Part shown: positions 6,990 to 48,176 of the stretch, piece by piece
Layout of the letters: each line of letters starts with the position of its first letter
Numbering within the stretch: position 1 is the stretch's first letter
Origin: Dysidea avara
Taxonomy: Eukaryota; Porifera; Demospongiae; Dictyoceratida; Dysideidae
Assembly: GCF_963678975.1 (NCBI RefSeq)
Contig: NC_089285.1
Location: 9,162,694 to 9,226,693 of the forward strand
Length of the DNA stretch: 64,000 bases
Direction of reading: 5' to 3'
Notes under the pieces: model-generated
What the model was told of the DNA's origin: nothing
The model's input: only the letters and a program-made list of their open reading frames with translations
The model's database searches: none
Made by a program: the position numbers and the translations under genes

Positions 6990-8545
6990 CCACTACCTTG
7001 ATACAAATAAAGCCTGTGGTCCGGTCCATCATTCATCCTTAAACAGTTTGCTGTGGAAATTTCTCCTATCTTACAAGTCATTTTTACACAATCACTATCT
7101 TCAGGCTTACTACCATCAGATTGGAAAAAAGCAAACATTTGTCCAGTCTTTAAGAAAGGTAGGCGTGATGAAGCAAGTAATTATAGACCGATACCCCTTA
7201 CTTCTATATGCTCAAAAACAATGGAACACATCATTTTTCACAACATAATGAGTCACCTTAATGCCAATGACATCCTAATAGAAAACCAACATGGCTTCAG
7301 TGCTGGTCATTCATGTGCTACCCAACTCATTACCCTAACAGAAGATATTCTACATGCTCTAGACCATCAGAAACAAGTTGACATCATATTGCTTGATTTT
7401 GCTAAAGCTTTTGACACAGTTCCACACCAGCGATTACTTACGAAATTACAATACTATGGCATTAGAAACAATACATTTAACTGGATCAAAACATGGTTAA
7501 CTGATCGGACACAATGTGTACTTCTTAATGGCAAATCCTCAACCCCGTACAGTTACATCAGGGGTACCACAAGGAACAGTACTTGGTCCTCTGATGTTCT
7601 TGTTGTATATATTAATGACATTATCAGAAGTATTTCATCACCACTACGGCTGTTTGCTGATGACTGCTTGTTATATAGAGTAATTGATTCCCAGAATGAT
7701 GCTTCTATCCTTCAGCAAGATCTTGACAGACTATCAGAATGGGTACACATATGGTAACTTAGGTTTAATGTATCCAAATGTGTTGTAATAAGATGCACCA
7801 GATCTCAGTCACCTATCATTCATAACTATGAACCGAACAACCATACCTTAACAATTACTGATAGACATACATACCTCGGAGTACTCTTGGATAAACATTT
7901 ATCTTGGTCACCTCATGTATCCAAAATAACAGGAAAAGCATCCAGAACATTAAACTTTCTTAAGAGAAACCTCAGTAAGCAATTGTTCTACACAAGTGAA
8001 AGCAGCAGCATATTTAGCAATGGTAAGACCACAACTGGAATATGCTTCAGTAGTATGAGACCCTATTTATAACAGTGATGTACATAAACTTGAAAATATT
8101 CAAAGAAGAGCAGCAAGATGGGTATTGAAAGATTACAGTAGATACAGTTCAGTTACTTCCATGCTCCAACATCTCTCCTGGCCTGAACTTAAAACTCGAC
8201 GCAAGATAACCAGACTGCAGACATTTCACAAAGCACTTCACAACCAAATTCCCTTATCTATTCCATCCAATTATCTTCCAATGACCAGAGAAACCAGGCA
8301 ATATCATCAGTACCATTTCATACTCCCTACAACATCTACTACAGCTTACCAAAAAAGTTTTTTCTCCAGAACAGCTCAAGACTGGAACTCGTTGCCACAA
8401 TTCCTAATTGATTTAAATGACTCTGACTCTTTCTCAGTTAACATTTCTAATTATTGTGGTAATGTACAATTGTGATTTTTTTTTCCTGGGCGCATCAGCA
8501 GTGCTGGCTGCTCAGTAATAATAAATTTAAAAAATAAAAAAATAA
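6990..8545 (+). pseudogene. CR1/L2-like LINE reverse transcriptase, broken
   Basis: A 5'-truncated non-LTR retrotransposon. RT blocks appear in order: NKACGP (about 7005), SDWKKANICPVFKKG (about 7118), NYRPIPLTSIC, QHGFSAGHSC (7290), DFAKAFDTVPHQRLL (7396), the SGVPQGTVLGP block in another frame (about 7559-7606), and FADD (about 7655). The thumb and C-terminal region (YLGVLLDKHLSW, then RRAARWVLKDY) follows to the stop at 8475. Breaks include a TAA at 7756, frameshifts either side of the PQG block and another near 8060. After the stop come a T tract, a short 3' UTR and an A-rich tail near 8545. No intact endonuclease is present. CR1/Jockey-group assignment is from motif style. Confidence 0.85.
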
Positions 8546-32909: not shown

Positions 32910-34048
32910 GGGATCATGGAGGTCTACGGGAGTTTGACTCAACGAAAGAATCAATTGAGGACTTTCGGAAAAGGTTTGAATTCTACTGTGTGGTGAATAA
33001 TACTCGTAACGATGCCGCACGACATAAGAAGGCACTTTTTCTTACGCTACAGGGACAAACAACATATGGAAAGTTAAAGGATTTGGCTAGCCCTATGCCA
33101 GTAAGCAAGCTAACACTTGATGATATCATGAGACATTTAGAAGGCCACTATCGCCCACAAACCATAGAAATAGCGGAATGATGATACCATGAGACATTTA
33201 GAAGGCCACTATCACCCACAAACCACAGAAATAGCAGAATGCTTCAAGTTTTTCAAGAGAAGTCAGCAGAATTCAGAATCAGCGGCTGAGTTTATGACAC
33301 AATTACGATGATTGGCAAAAACTTGTTAACTTTAAGCAATATTTGGAACTTGCCATTCGTGACCAATTTGTTTGTGGACTACAAGACTCGAAATGTCAGA
33401 AGGAACTACTCTGTGTTGCAGACTTGACTGCAGACCTTGCTCTACAACGGGTCAAAGCAGCTGAAGTAATTCGCAAAGAGACAGAAGGCATACAAAAATC
33501 CCACAAGGAAAACGAAAAAGGAACTGGTGGGACACACAGAATTCACTCAGCTAAGTTAGAATGCTACCGGTGTGGGAAGTCATATCATTCAGCTGCAGAC
33601 TGTCACTATAAGGATGCTACATGCCATGCGTGCCAGAAGACAGGCCACCTGGTCAGAGTATGCCAATCACGGAAAAAGAAGACCGAACTACAGTGTTCAT
33701 CTTGGAATCACTCGCATGAAATCACTAGCTCGCAGTTTCATATGGTGGCCACGGTTGGATGGAGACATAGAAGACATCTCTAAGAACTGTAATGAATGTT
33801 GCTTGATGGCAATCAACCCTCCTCACGCACCAGCACATCCATGGTTGGTGCCTCAGCAACCATGGGAGCGTGTTCATGTTGACCATGCACAGTGGGGTAA
33901 ATGGTTGCTGTTAGTGGCTATTGATGCATTTTCAAAATGGCCTGAAGTGTTTGTTGTAAGTTCTACATCCGCTTTGCAGACCATTTGCGACCCTAGCCTA
34001 ATAATGATGATCAAGATTCAGCACCTGGCCAACTACAACTACCAGTAG
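32910..34048 (+). pseudogene. gag / integrase remnant
   Basis: gag runs from about 32916 (an early frame with MEVYGSLTQRKNQL) through ARHKKALFLTLQGQTTY. It includes a 61-bp tandem duplication at 33119-33240. Two CCHC zinc knuckles follow (CYRCGKSYHSAADC and CHACQKTGHLVRVC, about 33560-33665). The sequence then passes by frameshift directly into an integrase zinc-binding region (CNECCLMAINPP) and core start (VHVDHAQWGKWLLLVAIDAF, SKWPE). The integrase stops after about 60 core residues. The complete pol region upstream of integrase has been deleted. Confidence 0.85.
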
Positions 34049-34292: not shown

Positions 34293-34407
34293 TGTTGTAT
34301 GTGTATATCTATAATGCATGCATGCATACGGCGATTGTACTTTAATCAGAGTGTATTGAATATAGTGAAACATGTGGCTGGGTCAGGCATTCCTCTAGTT
34401 CAGAACA
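34293..34407 (+). repeat. 3' LTR (115 bp)
   Basis: Partner of 32778-32892. Followed by the TATAG duplication at 34408-34412. Confidence 0.9.
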
Positions 34408-34574
34408 TATAGCTACTCTATCTTTTTGCATAACAATATGTGTTTAATATACTGGCAAGGTGAAAACAGTGCAAGCACCCACTCAAACAGAAGAAGTGAC
34501 GGCAACATTAGATGGTAAAGGAATGCCTTAGTCTCGCGTGGCCAGACCCTTTCCACGCAGCCGCTTATCGATTG

Positions 34575-35027
34575 GAAATTATAAGCGCCGCGCTACAAGG
34601 GTCTGGAATAGTTCATGAACATGAAATTTTTCGACACGTTGTCGGTGACAATTGATTGATTGGGTAACACCTAAGATCCAAAGATTTAAAATGCAATGGA
34701 TGTTCCCTTGAATCTTTAGTCTGTTTTGATCGGCAAATCAGCTTAAAACCTTTCGCCTACTTTCCTTGTAACTCGAGATGAACTGAGCTTGTTTGTCTTT
34801 ATTCAGCCGTACTTGTTGAAGATTCAGTAGTAGGTAAGAGGAAAACCCTACACGGGTCGATACTCGTCATCCCCAGAGGCCTTCTTCTGCTCATTCTTCA
34901 GTAATCAGATCACTTTGGCGATTAAGGGATCGCGTGAGCCAATTTACACTCCCCAAACACTGAGGATTGTAGATTTTTTAAATACGCGAACTATTCCAGA
35001 CCCTTGTAGCGCGGCGCTTATAATTTC
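34575..35027. repeat. Perfect 40-bp inverted repeat enclosing 373 bp
   Basis: 34575-34614 and 34988-35027 are exact reverse complements. They contain ATAAGCGCCGCGCTACAAGG and GTCTGGAATAGTTC. The AAGGGTCTGG core echoes the subterminal motif of the outer inverted repeats. The right copy abuts the truncated 5' end of the RT coding region. It may be a nested MITE or a rearranged subterminal region. Confidence 0.85.
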
Positions 35028-38000
35028 AAATCCTGGGGTGCGGCCTATTGGTGTGTGCGAGGTTATGAGACGTATTGTTGCTAAGGCTGTGCTATCCTGC
35101 GGGATGACATTCAGGAGGCAGCTGGTTCACACCAACTTTGTGCGGGGCAACTTTCTGGGGCGGAGGCTGCGGTTCATGCTGTCCGAAAGGTTTTTGAGGA
35201 AGGAAGCACTGAGGCTGTGTTGCTGGTGGACGCCTCCAATGCCTTTAACTCGCTGAACTGTTTGGTGGCTCTACACAACATCAGACAACTGTGCCCGCCA
35301 CTTTCCACTATTCTGATCAATATTTTTAGGTCTCCAGCCTCTTTGCTTGTTTCTGGGGAGGTTATTTTATCAGAGGAAGGTACTACACAGGGAGACCCAC
35401 TAGCTATGCCTATGTATGCCCTTGCTACAGTGCCTTTAATCAATCAGTGGACCAGATCTGGTATGCTGATGATGCTTGTGCTTGTGGCAGTATACAGGAC
35501 TTGCTCATCTGGTGGAACCAGCTCTGTATTAAGGGACCTGCTTTTGGCTATTTTGTAAATGCTCCTAAAACTTGGTTAGTTTCTAAGGAAAGGTTCCATT
35601 CAATTGCTACTACTCTGTTCTCAGATACTGATGTTCAAATTACTTCTGCGGGGCCGTTCCTACCTTGGGGCTGCCATTGGTTCAAACGCTTATGTCCAGG
35701 AATTTGTGAGGGACAAGGTTGTTGGATGGTCAGCAGAGATTACACGGCTTGCCAAGTTCGCACAAGTTCAGCCGCATGCTGCTTATTCCGCTCTCACTCA
35801 TGGCTTGTCAAGCCATTGGCTCTACCTTTGTCGCACTACTCCAAACATATCAGAGGCTTTACAACCCCTTGAGGACAACATCCGGCTGGTACTTATCCCT
35901 ACTTTGATGGGATGCTCTCCACCAAATGACACAATCCGTAAATTATTTGCCCTTCCACCTCGATATGGTGGTTTGGGTATCATAAACCCAACTCTTATTG
36001 CAGCTGAGGAGTATTTAGCCTCGTGTCACATTACTGAGCCTCTTTCACAATTCATTCTGGAACGGGGTACCAATTCGGCTATTGTTAAATCAGAACAGCT
36101 ATCTCGCAAGTCCGCAATTCCAAATCTTCCAACTATTCGGATAGATCTTCCAGTTTGCGTACCCATTTAGATCCCCCCTCTCAACGCGCTTTAGATCTAG
36201 CCTCAGCCAAAGGGGCCTCCAACTGGCTTACCACCCGGCCCCTACAGGAACATGGCTTTGCACTGCATAAGTCCGCGTTTCACTATGCCGTGGCACTACG
36301 TTATGGGTGGTCTCCTCAGCGGACTCCTGCTCACTGTGCATGTGGAACTTCCTTTTCAGTGGAGCATGCTTTATCCTGTCCCAAGGGTGGCTTACCTTCT
36401 ATCCGACACAATGAGATCAGAGATCTAACTGCTACCCTGTTGACTGAAGTATGCTCTCAGGTAGCTGTTTAACCAGAGCTCCAGCCGGTTTCACAGCAGG
36501 ACTACCCTGCTTCTGCCAATATCCAAGATGGTGCCCATCTTGACATCGCCATGAATGGTTTTTGGGGTGGAAGAAGTGAAAGATGTTTTGTGGATGTGCG
36601 GGTGTTCAACCCTCTGGCTGCTTCTAATGCATCCTCATCACTGGCCTCCTGTTATCGGAGGCACGAGAACATTAAGAAAGGCGTGTATGCTCAGAGAATT
36701 CGTGAGGAGGAGCATGCCTCTTTTACCCCCCTGGTAATGTCTGCCTCTGGTGGTCTGGCTCATGAGGCTTCTGTTTTTCATCAACGCTTGGCTCATCAAC
36801 TTTCAAATAAGTGGGGCGATGATTACTCTGTTGTCATGGGGTGGTTAAGGTGCTGTCTATCTTTTTCTCTCTTGCGGTCCTCCATAGAGGAGTTTCATCG
36901 CGTGATCAAAATTACGTAACATCCAGGAAGTCGCCATTTTTGTGCACAGTTCAGGTCACTGTTCAGTACTCTCAATGCAGCGGTTATCTACTTATGCCGA
37001 GGATCTACCGAGTGACGCTAAGGCTCGATATAGAGAGAAGTTAGAGGTTATTGGTGGGAATGATCCTTTTCTGTCTGGACGGATTGGCGAAGTGGTTGAT
37101 CGTTTGCCTGATTTAGATGCATTGGATCTAGTTTCGTACCTGGTCTTGCAGACAAGTTTTATTTCGGCAAAGCAATTTCAAGCTCGTAAGGGCCTTGAAG
37201 CTTATAATCAGTTCGTTTGTGGGTGGGTTAAAGATGTGCGCAGCCGCCTTGTTTGTGGAAAGTACCTGATTACCTCTCGAGTAAGCTACTGATTGTATGT
37301 TGTAACGACATAGTAGGGATGTTAAATTTACAGAAGTAACATTGCACTGAGCTGATAATAATACTTACTAGTATAATTGTGTACTGTAAATATTTTGGGA
37401 TGACCCAGTCTAGAAAATCATAAAGTTGTGTTTTAAAATAATGACTGTAGCTAGTAGCTGCCTGACCGGCACCTTCCAACCAAATCTGTTGTAAATGCAT
37501 GTACAGTTATGTGTGTTCTACTATTATGTGAAGTCTTTCTATTTTAAGGTTCGGCATTCCCAAAAAATCAATGAGACACGACTTGGTTGCTGGATAATTG
37601 TAGAGGAGACTGGAGAAATTTGCTGTGCACACTGTAATTGTATGGCTGGGCTCGGAGAGACGTGCACACATATTGCAGCTGTTTTATTTTATGTAGAAGC
37701 TGTAGTGCGAATGCAGGGTGCCAGGATTTGCACCCAGTCACAGTGTGCTTGGGTTATCCCATCTTACATGAAGTCAATTGATTACATGCCTATCAGAAAA
37801 ATTGACTTTACATCTGCAAGTGGGAAGAAAAGAAAATTGGATGAGATGTTGCATGAATCAGTTGATGAAAATGATTCTGCAGAGCCCAGTTCAGACAGTT
37901 GTCTTAAACATTGCGAGCAACCAACTGAAGAAGAACTGAGTCTGCTATTTGAAGCTATAAGCCTTGCAGGTACACGGCCTGCTACCCTATCAATAGACCA

Positions 38001-38104
38001 TATGCATGGTCTAAAAACGCAACGGAATTATTTTACAAAAAAAAGTTGACGGTGAACGACTACCGGAGCGATTATTTTGAACTTGAAAACTAGACCAACG
38101 ACGA

Positions 38105-39805
38105 ATGATGTCTAAACGACAATGCTGTGTTTGGGGTTGCCACAACAGGAAAGGAAGATGTGTGGAGGATATTGATGGAAATCGTCTTTGTGGATGCCCT
38201 CAGCTGCAGGTTGACGGTTGCCCCAAGCCCGAATTGGTGACACTCTACACCATTAGCAAAATGCCCCAGTCTATTAAACGCGCTGTTATACAAAGAATCA
38301 ACCTTACTAGACAAGGTCCAGAACAGAGCAGGTGGAAAGCTTCTTCAACCGCGGTGATCTGCAACGTGCATTATGAGGACTTCATGGGTCCTAGCAAGAC
38401 AAACAAATTTTGTATTCCTGTGTATTTTAAGAAGCCCAGCACCACTCCAGCATCAAAGAAAGCTAGGAGAGAGGAAGAAGATATGCAGGATACAACCAGT
38501 GGATATCAGGATGAAGATCTTGATGATTTGTCACTGCAAGATACTCAGCCAGAAACTATCCGTGTAAGCCTTGATATTTGTACAGCCTCAAGTACTTCTC
38601 AACTGGACTTGGATGCTGAGTTGTACCTTGAATCTACTGAATTTACTGATACAACTGAAGATACTCAGTCAGATACTGTTCCCATACAATCACATTTGCA
38701 TGGTCTTGATGCTGAAGACCCAGGTACAGCCTCCAGTAGTACTCAACTGGTTAATGCTGAGCTGTGCTGTGAACCTGCTATGATACTAAGTGGTACACCT
38801 GTTTCACAACCACATGATCTTAGTTCACCTGATGTTGCAAGTATTGTCTCCAGGTGTGCTCAGGTAGAGCAAGAAAACAGTGAGCTACGTGCAGAGAACT
38901 TGGCATTGAAACAAAAACTTGAGACTTTCAACAGCACTGTGCAGCGATTAAGTTTGAGCCTACTTACAGAAAGTAAACTACAAATGTACACTGGCCTTCC
39001 TCGGAAGGTATTTGAATGTCTTTTAGCGTGGATAATTCCTGCAGTAAGAAAAAGAGGAGCACGTGATGAACTAGATCCATCTCAAAAGTTGCTCTTGGTT
39101 ATGATGAGGGTTCGTTACAACTTTCCGCAAAGTGATTTAGCTTTTCGCTTTAATATTGATCAAAGCACAGTATCCCGTATCCTAAATCAGTGGATACCAA
39201 TGCTGAAAGTTCAGTTGAAACAACTTATTAGATGGCCACAAACAACTATTGGCCCAATTGATCCTCCCTACAATTTATTACCCAATGCTGTAGCCATTAT
39301 TGATGGAACTGAAATTTTTATTGAAAGGCCAAGTAACTTAGCTACACAGAAATCTTCATACAGTGATTATAAAAGTCATACCACAGTAAAGTATTTAGTA
39401 GCTATAGACACTTTTACTGGAGTTTTTGTGTATGTTTCACCCGGATTTTCTGGAAACAGCAGTGATCGGTTTACTATAGAGCATAGTGGGATACTACATC
39501 AATTGAAACCAGGCCAAAGAATCCTTGCTGACAAAGGATACAATGCACGGGATCTTTTTGCTCAGAAGAGATGTTTTTTGACCATTCCGAGTTTCTTAAG
39601 TGAAGGTCGCCTTACTGCACAGGAAGGTTTGAATTCTCGGACAATTGCCAGTGCACGGATTAGAGTGGAGAATGCCATCAAACGGTTAAAGGAGTACAAG
39701 GCTTTATCTGAAACATTAAGCAACAGAGTGAACAAGAAGATTGTGGATGATATGGTCCTTGTAGCTGGTGCACTATGTAACTTGAAACAAAAATTGATTA
39801 AGTAA
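38105..39805 (+). CDS. THAP/DDE transposase of element B
   Basis: An intact 566-aa frame. The N-terminus is a THAP zinc-finger domain (CCVWGCHNRKGRC, VICNVHYEDFMGP, IPVYF within about residues 1-110), which binds transposon ends. An acidic, Ser/Thr-rich linker with internal repeats follows (LDICTASSTSQLDLDAELYL; a similar block recurs about 50 codons on), then a coiled coil (EQENSELRAENLALKQKLE, about 260-280). The catalytic part is of the DDE_Tnp_4 type: HTH-like SDLAFRFNIDQSTVSRILNQ, first Asp in VAIIDGTEIFIERPSN (about 395), second Asp in ILADKGYNARDL (about 475), Glu in ARIRVENAIKRLKE (about 518). All three acidic residues are present. The start at 38105 (two Met in a row) lies about 110 bp inside the element end. 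Possibly functional. Confidence 0.85.
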   Translation: MMSKRQCCVWGCHNRKGRCVEDIDGNRLCGCPQLQVDGCPKPELVTLYTISKMPQSIKRAVIQRINLTRQGPEQSRWKASSTAVICNVHYEDFMGPSKTNKFCIPVYFKKPSTTPASKKARREEEDMQDTTSGYQDEDLDDLSLQDTQPETIRVSLDICTASSTSQLDLDAELYLESTEFTDTTEDTQSDTVPIQSHLHGLDAEDPGTASSSTQLVNAELCCEPAMILSGTPVSQPHDLSSPDVASIVSRCAQVEQENSELRAENLALKQKLETFNSTVQRLSLSLLTESKLQMYTGLPRKVFECLLAWIIPAVRKRGARDELDPSQKLLLVMMRVRYNFPQSDLAFRFNIDQSTVSRILNQWIPMLKVQLKQLIRWPQTTIGPIDPPYNLLPNAVAIIDGTEIFIERPSNLATQKSSYSDYKSHTTVKYLVAIDTFTGVFVYVSPGFSGNSSDRFTIEHSGILHQLKPGQRILADKGYNARDLFAQKRCFLTIPSFLSEGRLTAQEGLNSRTIASARIRVENAIKRLKEYKALSETLSNRVNKKIVDDMVLVAGALCNLKQKLIK

Positions 39806-40010
39806 CTATAATGTATACATATATATGTATTTTTTTTATTTTCTGGGTATTGTACAACAATAAGTGTAGTTGGTACTTTATAGCAGAACATTTATTGTAA
39901 TTTACAAGTGACATAAAATAATTAGCTTACATTGAACTACACAACCCATCAATACTACATGTATACATAACCCATGCGTAATAACACACATAACCTTATA
40001 TAAATTAATA

Positions 40011-41529
40011 CTACATATTACATAACCTATCTAAAGCTTCAACACCTAGTGTAGAGAAGTAAAAATGAGAGAGTTTATCCTTCATATCTGTCCATAGTTC
40101 AACATCAAACATAATCCGCTCAATATGAATGTCTACGTCTGTCCATACCACAAAATCACAAAATTCTGCACCTGTGAGTGCAATCTGACCTGTCACTTGA
40201 AAGTAGTAATCATGCCGGCGATTGAGAGATATTTGGCCATTTTCGGTATTTCTAAACAAACAAAATGCAGGGTCCTTGCAAGCCACTTCAATAGAATTAT
40301 TTCGGTGCTTATAGGGACACTTAACCTCTACCACTCCAAACTTTCCATTTGCAAGGGGAATGATTCCATCAGGAGATGTTGCCAGGTAAGGAAATTCTAC
40401 ACTCAGGTATACACCACATTCTTCAACCTGAGCACCACTCTGCTGAATGTATTGGTGTATAGCATTTGACTCGTGGTCACATCCCCACCGCAGTGCTGCT
40501 GTGTGGGGAATACCATAATCTCCTAACAGAGATTTAACCAGTGAAGGAGGATACAATCGTCGGAATGCTCTGTTGCAAACCCTACCAAAATTGCTAGACG
40601 TGATTCTCCACTGTCTTGCATCTAACCACAATGGATTATGTCTTTGACCAATGGTCATGACTTGGATTAACTCAACCTCTTCAGCTGTCGGCTTTAGCGC
40701 CTCAACAAGATCATCGACATTAACATCTCGAATAGAAGCGATGTCAGATAACTTATCAAGTGGGTCGATTAATACAGGATTAGCACTAGGTGGAGGAGCT
40801 GATTGCAAGGACCTTTCTTCTTCCTGCTTAAAATAATGCTGGACACCTGAGTCACATCCAGCACTCTCCAACTGTTGCAACAAGTCATCAACTTTTACAA
40901 CAGGCCCAGTGAATGCAACATAGCCATCAACAGATGACTTTCCAAAATCTAAGTCTACTACAAAGGATGGCTTTCCACTTTGTGTAGGCCTAGACCAAGC
41001 ACACCTCACACTTGTGCATGCTTGTGGAGTGATCTCGGTAAGTGTAATAAGTAGTGCAGCTATATGTACACAACTGTGTTTCCCCAGCAGGACACTTACA
41101 ATTTCCAGCTACAGGTCTTCCATCCTGTAACTTTGTAAATAGAGAGTAGAATGGAGGGTTCTTCCGCATAGTAGGTCGACATTTAGCTTTTATGAAAGTA
41201 GTGTCATCAGCTTTTGCCATCTCCAAATCAAACAAGTGGCTACACTGACATAAACGAACACCAGTTTGAAAATTCTTGGTGTAGCCTCCCTTTTCCTTAA
41301 GATATGCGGTAACATTACCTTCCCTCACTAACGGAAAGTCGTCTCCTGTCCAACCATCAGCTGGCAGTTGCTCAAAGCTTGGTGGACTTGTATACGTGAC
41401 ACATTGAAATGCGGTAGCCTCAATTTCCTCTTCTAATCTATCTGTATAAACAACATCAGCAACTTTTTGAACCAGTTCAGCCTTGTTTCCAGTTAGGGGT
41501 ATCCGCCTCTCTCGCAGAAAAGTCTTCAA
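40011..41529 (-). pseudogene. SAP-SWIM-YqaJ protein of element B
   Basis: The N-terminus (from 41529) is SAP-like (TFLRERRIPLTGNKAELVQK), followed by FDLEMAKADDTTFIKAKCRP and the start of a SWIM motif (CKCPAGET, about 41095). The frame then shifts by one base near 41080. The alternative frame continues the motif (CVHIAALL), then CTSVRCAWSRPTQSG and the YqaJ nuclease: RQWRITSSNFGRVC, WGCDHESNAIHQY, LATSPDGII, VVEVKCPYKHR, DYYFQVTGQIALTG, VVWTDVDIHIERI. All nuclease residues are visible, and the stop is at 40011. With one base restored this would be a full-length partner of the transposase, so it is either barely inactivated or affected by a consensus error. Start before 41529 not excluded. Confidence 0.75.
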
Positions 41530-42823
41530 TTGATCAACAGTCTACGAACGATACAACTCTACACCTTCCGCCATTCAGCTCACTGACACCGTTCACCGTT
41601 GTGACGTAAAGAGGATCACGAGAATTAGAGATATACGGTACGCATATCGTCTATTGTAGATCCATATTCAGATAATTATGTTCCTAAATCATCTCAAAGT
41701 GTTTTTCCAAAGCCTTTGAAATCTCTGTATGACATATCGTACATGCAGTTGAAGTACCATGAACTGCTGGAAGTGTGTGAATCTGTTTCACTTTCATTAG
41801 AGTTCACAGAGAGGATGTCGCAGTTGGTAGAAAAAGAGACCAGATCCCAAGCCAAATCTAGTTTGTGGTTTAAATACAGAGCTGGCAGGGTTACAGCATC
41901 CTATATGAAGTCAGTCTGCCATACTGACTCTGCAAACCCTGCGCAGAGTTTAATTAAATCGATTTGCTATCCCGAAGAATTTGCTTTCACAAGTAAGCCA
42001 ACAAGTTGGGGTCTAAAGCAAGAAAACATTGCCAGGGAACTGTACCTAAAACATATTGCCCCAAACCACGATTGTTTTGTGGTATCCAACAGTGGGTTGG
42101 TAATTAATCAAGAGTGGCCATTTCTTGGGGCATCTCCAGATGGCATCGTAGAATGTGATTGCTGTGGGAAAGGTGTTTTAGAAATAAAATGCCCTTATTC
42201 CCATCGTAGTGAGAGCATTTTATCGGCAGTGATCAGTGATAAACAGTTTTGCTTGACGAAGAGTGATGATGGTTCACTACATCTGGATCATGGGCATGCA
42301 TACTACTATCAAGTACAGACCCAAATGTTCATTTGCAATGTGGAATACTGTGACTTCTGTGTGTTCACCTTTCCAGCAGAAAGAGAGGATTCTTTGCCAC
42401 ATTTTCTGCTAGTCAATCAGTAGATAACAACCAATATGACAACAACGATGCAAATAACAGCCAAGGAAATGACTTGTTCTGCTATTGCCGTGGTCCTGAT
42501 GAAGGATCAATGATTGCGTGCGACAATAGTGAATGCAAAATTGAGTGGTTTCATCAGAGCTGCCTCAAACTCGAGATCATACCTAGAGGCAAATGGTATT
42601 GCCCTGATTGTCGCATATTACCACAATTTTTGAAAGGAAAAAAGAAGAAAAAGTAACTTTTACTTCATGTAGTGTTATCCTTATATTATTTCCATCATGT
42701 GATTTACAATACTTACAACAATTACATAGCTTAATATACAAAAATAAATCACAAACCACAATTTATACAATAGAAGGAATTGCAGAAAAAGTGTACTCAT
42801 TTACATAACTATGTGCATTTCAG

Positions 42824-44350
42824 TTACTCAAATGGCACAACAGAATCACACAAGTTTGTTAAAGCACAACAGACTCTTACTATACGATCAATAATGGGGA
42901 TGTCTTCACCTTTCCTCGTAGTCAAAAATGTGACCGGTATTGTGCTTTGCAGAATGGTTAATTTCTGCCTAACACAGCCTATTACACATTCAACATGGAT
43001 TCGAACATTTGCAATACTCCTGGTTTCTTCAACTTCAGTAGCTGTCAATTGGCTTTTCCCCCTCGTAAATGCTGGAATATGTAGTCTGGCTTGCATTGTA
43101 CCCACAGATTCCACAATGTCAAACCCACGGTCTGCTAACACAATGTTGCCAGGCAAAAGCTTCTGAAGCAGGCCACTGTTCTCAGTCAAAAATTTATCAC
43201 TCACACGTCCACCCCAGCACTCTGATACAAAAGAAATTGTACCTTGTGGGGTGATTCCTAGAAGCACCTTTGATGTATTGTGATGCTTGTAGTTAGACCA
43301 AGTAGCTGCCCTTGCCACTAAATTAGAAGGCCTTTCCGTGAAAATCTCAAAACAGTCAACAATTACTGCCACCTTTGAACCAAATGATGTCTTAAAACAT
43401 TCCGGCATAGTTTTTCTGAGAACATCACGCTCTGGCCAACGTATCAGATCTGACAATCTTATGTCCATCCTTTTGAGCCATTTCAAAATAACTCTAGACA
43501 TAGTGGCAGGGGAAACATGAAAAAGAAAGGAAATAAATTCATTTGGTAAATTCATTCTTAGCTTTAGCATAACACACATGAACTCCTGAAAGTGAGACAA
43601 CTTTGTGCCTTCATTAGCTGGCAAACCTTTTGCAACATGATCAAATACAGCTTTTACCAGCTTGAATTTTGGCAGTCCAGTATGAAATATGGTGTATTCA
43701 TCACTAATGAAGCTTTCTTCACAAAATGGAGGTAAATAGTCATTGAGTTGCTTTGTCAGGCTATCAACCTTATATTTGTAATAGGCTAACTCTTTCTGCA
43801 AACTTTCAACCTTACTTGCACATTTACATTCAGTGGTTTCTTTGTGACGAACACCAATTTTAACATACTGCTTCCCAAACTCGATTTCCTGAGAGGCAAT
43901 AAAGCCAGTCTCTTTGGTGACTATTTCATCAATAAGTTGTGACACTATGACCGGTACCTCTTTCAGCATTGCTTCAAAAGCATCCTTTCTCCTTTCTCTC
44001 TGTACAAGCCTTTCATACCTCTCCACGTGTACACTAACTGGAACTGTCGCACTCCGTTTCGAATGGCCCAGATTGAGGGTTGGTAGCCAATCTGGATCGT
44101 TAATACGATACAGTGGAGCCGGTTTCCCTGATGCAAAATGCTTCAAGCAAATTCTGTAGTCATGTTCTTCTAGAGAGGAGGGATCTATATCGTCTCTAGA
44201 AATAGCCGCCAAATATCCGTCTAAGCGTTTCCTTCGAAGTTCACAGTCCTTCTGTCCTTGGTGGTCAGACACAGCCGGAAGTTTGTAGAAGGAAATGCCT
44301 TTGTCTCGATCTGAACGGCTTGAGCAGTCTATAATTGCACATATCACCAT
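42824..44350 (-). CDS. THAP/DDE transposase of element A
   Basis: An intact frame. I take Met at 44350 (MVICAIIDCSSRSDRDKG) as the start, because the upstream 25 codons translate the terminal inverted repeat. This gives 508 aa. The THAP domain has Cys pairs (CAIIDC), FYKLP and ICLKHFASGKP. A helical linker (ECKCASKVESLQKELAYYKY) follows. The DDE_Tnp_4 core shows FISFLFHVSPATMSRVILKW, first Asp in VAVIVDCFEIFTERPSN, second Asp in IVLADRGFDIVE, Glu in VRIHVECVIGCVRQK. It ends close to the SWIM-YqaJ-PHD gene, which converges on it. Potentially active, though its mobile element is split by B. Confidence 0.85.
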   Translation of the reverse strand: MVICAIIDCSSRSDRDKGISFYKLPAVSDHQGQKDCELRRKRLDGYLAAISRDDIDPSSLEEHDYRICLKHFASGKPAPLYRINDPDWLPTLNLGHSKRSATVPVSVHVERYERLVQRERRKDAFEAMLKEVPVIVSQLIDEIVTKETGFIASQEIEFGKQYVKIGVRHKETTECKCASKVESLQKELAYYKYKVDSLTKQLNDYLPPFCEESFISDEYTIFHTGLPKFKLVKAVFDHVAKGLPANEGTKLSHFQEFMCVMLKLRMNLPNEFISFLFHVSPATMSRVILKWLKRMDIRLSDLIRWPERDVLRKTMPECFKTSFGSKVAVIVDCFEIFTERPSNLVARAATWSNYKHHNTSKVLLGITPQGTISFVSECWGGRVSDKFLTENSGLLQKLLPGNIVLADRGFDIVESVGTMQARLHIPAFTRGKSQLTATEVEETRSIANVRIHVECVIGCVRQKLTILQSTIPVTFLTTRKGEDIPIIDRIVRVCCALTNLCDSVVPFE

Positions 44351-44652
44351 ACTTCCTGTGCACAAAAATGGCGACTTCCTGGATGTTACATCATTTTGAT
44401 CACGCGATGAAACTCCTCTATACAATGCATCCGCGGAGCCCGCTCATCCATCGGTCACTATATTAAGACTCCCCCAATTGTGGAGCTGATTCGGGCAGAG
44501 TCTCAGTTTGCCGTGGACTAAGAAAGTCCCGGTTTGTCCAGCACAGGCCATTTATGTGCTGGGGGTGGTAGGTAAGGGCAGTCCATCAAGCCCGGAAAAA
44601 AAAATTTCCAATCGATAAGCGGCTGCGCGGAAAGGGTCTGGCCACGCGAGAC

Positions 44653-45104
44653 TAGTCTCGCGTGGCCAGACCGCTTTTTTCCGTATATTGGGTGGGGAAA
44701 AAAAGGGTCTGGTGCAACTCCAATAGCTGTTTACTTCTGAGCCGTCCCCACATTCCGGGGACGCTAATTGAATAACATTGGTCACAAAGGAGGTGCCATG
44801 ACGTCAGTAAGTTAACTAGAGATCTGTTTATCTTTTAAACGAATCTTAATTTGCTCCGATGTCTCTTTTTTTTAGCGTCTTGAAAGTTAATCCTCATCGT
44901 GTAACAAGACTCACAACCGGAGCAGAAGTGTAGGAATACTTCATAGTTTACTGACGTCATGGCACCTCCTTTGTGACCAATGTTATTCAATTAGCGTCCC
45001 CGGAATGTGGGGACGGCTCAGAAGTAAACAGCTATTGGAGTTGCACCAGACCCTTTTTTCCCCACTCAGTATACGGAAAAAAGCGGTCTGGCCACGCGAG
45101 ACTA
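44653..45104. mobile_element. MITE sharing termini with the 10-kb unit
   Basis: A 452-bp element made of two near-identical inverted arms of about 159 bp (44653-44811 and 44946-45104), starting TAGTCTCGCGTGGCCAGACC. Subterminal AAGGGTCTGG lies about 53-62 bp inside each end. The centre (about 44812-44945) is unrelated to the arms. No coding capacity. Confidence 0.9.
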
Positions 45105-45120
45105 GGAATGCCTATCATTG

Positions 45121-46371: not shown

Positions 46372-48176
46372 ATGCAGAAGAGTTATAGTGGGAACGACAT
46401 TGAGAAGGCACTTTCTGAGGTTCGTAAAACGGATGGATTAACTGCTCGTGCAGCAGCAAGGAAGTATGGTTTGGCTTCCAGTACACTGCATGATCATTAA
46501 TTTTACATGGAACTGTAAAGAAAGTTGGAGCTGGTGGTCCGACTGTATTGACCATGTCTGAAGAGAGAGAAATTGCCATGACATGCGTTGCACTTGCTGA
46601 GATAGGGTTTGGAATAACTCGTGCACTGGTTGAAGTAGTTATATTTGACTACCTGAAAGATAATGGTATTGAGAATCCCTTTCGTGGAGGAGTACCTGGG
46701 AAAGATTGGTGGCAACGCTTTAAGAGAAGGTGGCCAATGATCAGTGAAAGGAAGCCTCAGCATTTAAGCTTAAAAAGGGCTCAAGCAGGGAATGAAGAGA
46801 TTCTGAGAGCTTGGTTTGATAAGGTGAAGGAGGCACTATCCAAGAACTGCTTACAAATTGATGATGAGGCTATTTCTACTAGGCTATGGAACTGTGATGA
46901 AACAGCCTTTTGTACTTCAGTGTCCTCCCAGAAACTGTTAGCAAGACGTGGAATGAGGACAGTCCATGAGATTGGAGGTGGATCAGGTCGGCAGTATATC
47001 ACAGTGTATTGTGCTGGTAATGCTCATGGGGAAAGGCTGCCGCCATTTATTCTCTACAAGGGGAAAACATGTATCAGAGATGGATGCAGGGTGGTCCTGC
47101 AGGTGCAGTTTATGGTATAAGTGAGTCAGGTTGGATGGATGCAAGCAACTTCTTATCATGGTTTTGTAAGTTGTTTTTACCTGCTGTGGCACATTTGACC
47201 AAAACTGCACCAGTAGTATTATTCTTTGATGGTCACTACTCACACATCAGCATAGAACTAATTAATCAAGCTAGAGCCAATAAAGATGTGCTTATGTACT
47301 TTCCACCAAACACCACACACTTGCTCCAGCCTCTTGATGTTGGAGTATTTGCACCATTGAAGAATGCATGGCGAGCTATCCTTAAGCAGTACAAGCTGGA
47401 AACCAGAGGAGAACATGCCAGCAAAGAGGTTTTCCCAAGTTTAATTGCCAAGTTGTGGGAAACATCCTTCATGCCAAAACACTGCATAGGCGGATTTCGT
47501 TCTGCAGGTCTCACTCCATTCTCTCCAGAGCATGTGCTGCAAAAGCTAATGCCCATCCATGACTGCACCAGCACTAGAGCTTGAACCAGAGCAAGACAAA
47601 CAAATTGACAAGGTCAATCCAGTCAATCCACCCAAGCAACGTACAACAAAAGTTACATGCACCAGTTGTGGAAATGAAATGGTGCCCACAACTCCCACAG
47701 TGAAGATGTGCATTACATCGTACTTTGCTGGTATTTTAGAAATACAAAAGCATAAGCCAAAAGTTGGGGAGAGAAACAATTTGAAATCCGTCTTGAAGGT
47801 GAAGTGCTGACAACTGATGAGTTGATTGAGCTTCTAGAAGAGGAAAAAAGCACCAAGGAGAAGGGCAAAAGCAAAGGAAAAGCGAAGAAGTGTCACGGTG
47901 AGGAACAAGTTGCAGGTATGTGCTATTAGTGTCATACAGCTAATGCAAATAAATTTCTGTACAGTGATCTCACAGTTTCCTTATTTCACAGAAGCCAGTG
48001 CAGATGTGGATGAAAATAAGTGCCAGGAGTGCGGCTGCCTTTATGATAATGATGAGCACCCTGAGGCATGGATTGGCTGTGACAATGACGATTGTGGGCG
48101 ATGGTTCCATTATTGGTGTGCTGGTTTCCGCAGAAAGCGGAGTTCTTGGAAGCAGTTCATCTGCAAATATTGCTGA
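46372..48176 (+). pseudogene. pogo-type transposase with PHD finger, broken
   Basis: It opens with a psq-like helix-turn-helix (SYSGNDIEKALSEVRKTD, ARAAARKYGLASSTLHDH, 46378-46497), then a stop and frameshift. The second frame (46548 on) has a CENP-B-like DNA-binding region (PGKDWWQRFKRRWP, LSLKRAQAGNEE) and the first catalytic Asp in LWNCDETAF (about 46891). A one-base shift near 47062 leads to PAGAVYGISESGWM, FFDGHYSHISIELI (second Asp, about 47225) and HLLQPLDVGVFAPLKNAWR (third Asp, about 47335): a DDD pogo core. The C-terminus adds a CTSCGNEM region and, after a GT-AG intron (47916-47991), a PHD-type finger CQECGCLYD ... CDNDDCGRWFHYWC ... CKYC ending 48176. A PHD at this position is found in some invertebrate pogo transposases. 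Confidence 0.8.

Follow-up and report, generated by a model that had tools for sequence, protein, structure and literature searches.

How did the mobile elements stacked at positions 34520-45113 of a 64,000-nucleotide stretch of the genome of the sponge Dysidea avara (contig C14, 9162694-9226693; the whole stretch is called the window, and its first letter is position 1) come to lie within one another, and in what order? The window was analysed against the genome (550.8 Mb in 108 contigs) using what the assembled sequence holds within one genome, namely element ends, target duplications and paralogous sites. The locus is best read, with a probability of roughly 0.9, as four successive independent insertions together with one adjacent element from the family of the first: a miniature inverted-repeat transposable element (MITE1) received a reverse transcriptase retrotransposon (RT), RT received transposon A, and A received transposon B, with a second miniature element (MITE2) adjoining MITE1. 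The original prediction had described three nested levels; the nest is real and was correctly spotted, but its anatomy is that of four nested elements and one abutting element, and MITE2 (452 bp), the boundaries of RT, its A-rich tail and its AATTTC duplication had been missed. The parts are the following.

34520-34528: left copy of the 9-bp target duplication, GGAATGCCT
34529-35027, + strand: left arm and body of MITE1, 499 bp, including AATTTC at 35022-35027 (duplicated by RT); uninterrupted relatives are 544-547 bp
34529-34614, + strand: left arm of the MITE1 inverted repeat, about 86 bp
35028-44602, + strand: RT, a putative R2-like non-LTR (long terminal repeat) retrotransposon, 5'-truncated, with poly(A) tail and broken frame, in two pieces (35028-36885 and 44422-44602) with A in between
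36884-36885 and 44420-44421: left and right copies of the AT target duplication of A
36886-44419, + strand: transposon A, putatively ISL2EU-like, 7534 bp in all and 3874 bp once B and one AT are removed
37495-42423, + strand: YqaJ nuclease gene of A, in two pieces (37495-37992 and 41655-42423) with B between them (YqaJ, E = 3.9e-22)
37995-41652, + strand: transposon B, putatively ISL2EU-like, 3658 bp, with AT duplication at 37993-37994 and 41653-41654
38105-39805, + strand: transposase of B, an open frame of 566 amino acids (DDE_Tnp_4, E = 3.5e-35; HTH_Tnp_4, E = 5.7e-16)
40011-41529, - strand: YqaJ nuclease gene of B, in two frames in the window copy (YqaJ, E = 3.5e-15)
42824-44425, - strand: transposase frame of A, with THAP, HTH and DDE
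44603-44654, + strand: AATTTC duplication of RT (44603-44608), then the remainder of the MITE1 right arm (44609-44654)
44653-45104, + strand: MITE2, 452 bp with 159-bp arms, its TA at 44653-44654 shared with MITE1
45105-45113: right copy of the 9-bp target duplication, GGAATGCCT

The outer boundary is set by GGAATGCCT, which on the + strand of the window occurs at 34520-34528 and 45105-45113 only, and on the - strand once, at 34385. One perfect 9-bp duplication around a unit with 52-bp terminal inverted repeats (TIRs) had been proposed, and both the perfect duplication and the 52-bp repeats (34529-34580 and 44603-44654, 98% identical) were found, but the unit with these repeats ends at 44654 and MITE2 fills the space up to the right GGAATGCCT, so that the duplication encloses two units. 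The terminal repeat of MITE1 is moreover about 86 bp long: its inner part is held by a 45-bp repeat pair (34570-34614 and 34988-35032), and the 52-bp and 45-bp pairs combine into one repeat whose right arm is split between an inner and an outer part. Only 52 bp are visible because RT sits in the right arm, which ruled out 52 bp as the true repeat length. Removal of RT and one AATTTC leaves 499 + 46 = 545 bp, and uninterrupted relatives of 545, 544 and 547 bp (L049, L050 and L051) share 91.6-94.4% identity with the 499-bp left part of the window copy. At 4 of 4 MITE1-type loci (these three and L067) the RT site is undisturbed in both arms, with 0-3 mismatches in 32 bases; L049-L051 were chosen by fitting length, and thus prove that undisturbed copies exist, not how frequent they are. 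L067 (C1:24290010-24293900) is 3769 bp long, its body being split near position 240 by other DNA.

RT is flanked by AATTTC at 35022-35027 and 44603-44608 and ends in a run of nine A. At least 29 further copies were found among the matches listed in the genome search, a scope that holds for all copy numbers and pairings of RT, A and B given here. All listed copies were examined: an A-rich tail is present in 27 of 29 (not in L028 and L036), 5' ends and flanks differ among them, and 17 longer copies (L009-L024 and L034) extend upstream of the start of the window copy at 35028. Over 2502 bp L009 and L010 do not differ, which indicates that the family was recently active. The window frame as a whole is broken at places other than the A insertion; a 959-residue frame in L010 matches RVT_1 (E = 3.4e-7), and a conserved C-terminal region is visible in the alignment. 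Sequence profiles alone matched R2 weakly (E = 0.15). A structure model of P0001, an RT relative of 80% identity, was generated (mean predicted local distance difference test score 75.9) and compared with solved structures using Foldseek; the seven best matches were R2 entries (best E = 4.0e-17, template modelling scores 0.37-0.52), followed by LINE-1 (E = 8.2e-13), and the overall fold as modelled is of the R2 type. RT copies resemble R2 in this modelled fold, and are poly(A)-tailed and 5'-truncated, but they lie at many varied sites, whereas R2 proper occupies one target in 28S ribosomal DNA; since the flanks vary among the 29 copies, RT was classed as R2-like and not as R2 itself.

The placement of A within RT, and of B within the nuclease gene of A, was confirmed by coordinates and AT duplications, and the interrupted frames resume as had been proposed: with one AT retained, the RT frame of the window continues across the A site, as does the nuclease frame of A across the B site. 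The A site is read straight through in 29 of 29 listed RT copies. The only other copy of A found, L029 (C1:4934000-4943900), is uninterrupted at the B site and has an intact nuclease frame there. A paralogous undisturbed site is thus present for each step of the proposed order of RT, then A, then B. Nine other near-full copies of B were found, 99.1-99.5% identical in the longest piece (a tenth relative, L031, is diverged at 75-94% and was excluded from the B counts); in four of these copies (L040, L042, L044 and L045) the nuclease is a single frame of 521 residues. The transposase of A presumably starts inside A, though the listed frame begins 6 bases outside it.

Further side observations concern these transposons. 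The YqaJ domain of A is followed, in another frame, by a PHD-finger-like stretch recognised by eye (window, about 42424-42657). L029 carries a different AcademH-like MITE inside the A transposase gene (about 2482-2855), with duplication GGCATTTCC, and the undisturbed target of that MITE, GGAAATGCC, is found at 44291-44299 in the window copy of A. At position 830 of L046 (C1:44334900-44339900), a copy of B apparently lies within another copy of B.

Domain matches and the published description of the ISL2EU group of the PHIS superfamily (PMC4482050) support an ISL2EU-like assignment of A and B. In the part of that description used here, the group makes AT duplications and pairs a DDE and HTH transposase with a YqaJ gene, as do A and B. 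It also has a THAP domain, as in A, whereas at the N-terminus of B Pfam matched no THAP domain (E up to 1). The target of the group is A-AT-T, which is that of B here, and the AT duplication with AAT and ATT flanks was found in 8 of the 9 other near-full B copies (not in L040), whereas A is flanked as C-AT-A. The ends of the group are "usually" GG, whereas A and B both begin with AG, a difference that is not decisive, so that both were classed as ISL2EU-like. The mean length of the group is about 4.84 kb, and A and B are shorter, at 3.7-3.9 kb.

With undisturbed copies of MITE1, RT and A in the same genome, RT is an independent insertion and not cargo of the TIR unit. The proposal that RT arose "in or with" that unit therefore holds for "in" and fails for "with", RT being a separate non-LTR retrotransposon; that RT has its own ends and its own copies elsewhere ruled it out as a passenger. 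The cargo-carrying composite raised by the original prediction, in which a unit already loaded with RT, A and B came to this site, is not needed and is very improbable: the outer duplication shows no mismatch and a search for an unoccupied allele found none, as such a unit would allow, but RT splits the inverted repeat in its right arm, B is near-identical to its paralogs whereas MITE1 differs from its own by 5-9%, and, among the matches listed, neither another locus pairing RT with A nor a second loaded unit was found. Substitutions against paralogs, counted with gaps excluded, amount to 5.2-9.2% for MITE1 (n = 4), 1.3-1.8% for RT (n = 29), 1.3% and 2.8% for the two sides of A (n = 1), 0.4-0.6% for B (n = 9) and 1.6-5.4% for MITE2 (n = 4); the divergences appear to fall in the direction of nesting (MITE1, RT, A, B), as a rough guide to age only. 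All layers are repeats (A with one other copy, the rest with more), as a fusion of unrelated copies during assembly would call for, but such an artefact is scarcely credible, since matching target duplications at the MITE1/MITE2, RT, A and B junctions, and undisturbed paralogs of RT, A and B, are not expected from a mis-join.

Several points weigh against a plain succession of insertions. The divergences of RT and A overlap, A is represented by a single paralog, and a paralog distance is not a date. The last two A of the RT tail can be assigned either to RT or to the right copy of AATTTC, so that two of its six bases could be poly(A) and the RT duplication may be only 4 bp. No empty outer GGAATGCCT site, as had been suggested for a check, was found among the 40 matches listed for the joined flanks, none of which crosses the junction. 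Plain sequential insertion also leaves the doublet unexplained, MITE2 having no 9-bp duplication of its own.

From these ends and families we infer the enzymes used and the formation of the doublet. In the favoured succession, MITE1 would have inserted first with the 9-bp duplication, its transposase supplied from elsewhere, by an AcademH-like element such as L068. RT would have followed as a 5'-truncated, poly(A)-tailed R2-like copy entering the right arm of MITE1 at AATTTC, probably by target-primed reverse transcription, the mechanism suggested by its family. A would then have entered RT, and later B would have entered A, through putative ISL2EU-like transposases that duplicate AT. MITE2, adjoining MITE1 with one shared TA, may have inserted 2 bp from the MITE1 end with subsequent collapse of an 11-bp repeat, or may have arrived already joined.

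The outer elements were compared with AcademH, for which the primary description is reportedly that of Kojima (2020). Their 20-bp family end has 663 + 642 exact occurrences genome-wide (control, 0 + 0). The first 100 matches listed, all on C1, gave 27 facing pairs, and 20 members were examined: 16 have perfect 9-bp duplications, 2 have perfect 10-bp duplications (L056 and L068), and 2 have 9-bp duplications with one mismatch (L062 and L065). The 9- and 10-bp duplications exceed chance. L068 is a long relative (5538 bp) with the same ends, encoding DEAD (E = 3.8e-9) and Helicase_C (E = 2.5e-15) matches in separate frames and two DUF6589 pieces, also in separate frames (E = 1.8e-28 and 5e-8). 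A Mutator-like element (MULE) origin was dropped after helicase and DUF6589 were seen in L068. Target duplications of 9 or 10 bp are given for AcademH in the relevant part of its account (PMC10045372), and this length, together with the observed duplications and the helicase-coding L068, led to the outer elements being called AcademH-like MITEs; they differ from AcademH in that MITE1 and MITE2 are non-coding. Seven members (L060-L066) are just 72-150 bp long and largely inverted repeat, with perfect 9-bp duplications in 5 of 7. One of them, L060 (C1:8803965-8804155), is a 73-bp AcademH-like element that lies close to the end of an RT copy and is flanked by the duplication GCCGTAGAC; the AcademH-like and RT families have thus inserted into each other.

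MITE2 belongs to another subfamily, with relatives (L053, L054, L055 and L057) of 92.6-97.4% identity. The ends of MITE1 and MITE2 with their one common TA form CGCGAGACTAGTCTCGCG, which has one exact occurrence in the 550.8 Mb. At up to 2 mismatches it occurs at 21 places, and the 20 others were examined, yielding 7 single elements, 3 joins, 1 possible join and 9 unclassified places. The single elements (L072, L073, L075, L077, L078, L080 and L084) have matching duplications (one mismatch in L080), and their target resembles an end. The three end-to-end joins, each with one TA, are L071 on C15 and L082 and L083 on C10; the latter two are identical over 1000 bases and therefore count as one event. 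L069 is the possible join, its left end not being found in 8 kb upstream. The unclassified places have one recognisable end or none, and further degraded joins may hide among them. A palindromic 28-mer across the join was found, at up to 3 mismatches, at four places (the window, two on C10 and one on C15; control, 0), each with one TA. No clear outer duplication was found at the other joins: at C10, where the ends of the second element are degraded, 5 of 8 bases agree at the positions expected for it, and at C15, whose second element measures just 51 bp, no left end was found within 709 bp. Frequent intact dimers, with 1 exact join against 1305 exact ends, are not supported.

Two routes to the doublet were weighed. 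That a MITE1-MITE2 pair already existed and was carried into GGAATGCCT as a single composite, mobilised by its outermost ends, with RT, A and B arriving later, was given not quite an even chance; the join itself may form by two cut ends annealing through the self-complementary TA. The single 9-bp duplication around both units and the recurrence of the 28-mer join, each time with one TA, favour such a pair, and the failure of the uncollapsed form to match anywhere at 0-2 mismatches leans slightly the same way, but the exact join is unique in the genome, which leaves a mobile pair with no known sister copy, and the C10 and C15 joins are both degraded. Tentatively, and with more doubt, MITE2 can instead be taken to have inserted 2 bp from the right end of MITE1, duplicating ACGCGAGAC and leaving a tandem ACGCGAGACTA before GGAATGCCT, one copy of which was lost by slippage. 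The nine bases left of MITE2 are indeed ACGCGAGAC, and insertion with collapse predicts all at once that the two elements have one TA in common, that MITE2 lacks a duplication and that only one lies outside the pair; members of the family are also seen to enter one another's ends, as in L084 (duplication GTCTGGCCA). Against this, the uncollapsed intermediate was not found genome-wide with 2 or fewer mismatches (five places with 3). By analogy with the joined-end dimers of some bacterial insertion sequences, it is conceivable, though unlikely, that AcademH-like elements pair end to end through the self-complementary TA at their termini and that such a dimer transposes as a unit, making only one 9-bp duplication; the window would then hold the one intact case.

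In coral, CMITE tandem arrays and CMITE-IN (PMC2872659) likewise involve tandem MITEs and a MITE insertion that creates a new mobile unit, but in the portion of that account consulted they belong to a TTAA piggyBac family, the arrays are ascribed to replication slippage, and a shared-TA join was not found. Nesting is used to reveal insertion order in the literature on nested transposable elements generally, which, in the part surveyed, chiefly concerns plant LTR retrotransposons, tools and a nematode element, whereas three kinds of element are nested here in a sponge. A literature search for Dysidea avara with transposable elements returned nothing. MITE1 together with the start of RT gave no match to phages by distant BLAST, and the exact 20-bp family end gave none in viral_contigs and genome_contigs. 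Other element remnants in the window are an RVT_1 match (7053-7757), a gag-like frame with weak CCHC zinc-knuckle matches (33343-33783) and a DDE_1 transposase (47069-47584).

Such nests are common in transposon-rich genomes; this one is ordinary for a genome of that kind, and the end-to-end MITE join is its sole unusual part. As undisturbed RT, A and B sites are present in the same genome, the relative order of activity of several sponge element families can be read from the locus. The cutting and joining of Academ ends is not treated in the parts of the AcademH accounts drawn on here, and the MITE join would offer a natural test of that process in these helicase-encoding transposons.

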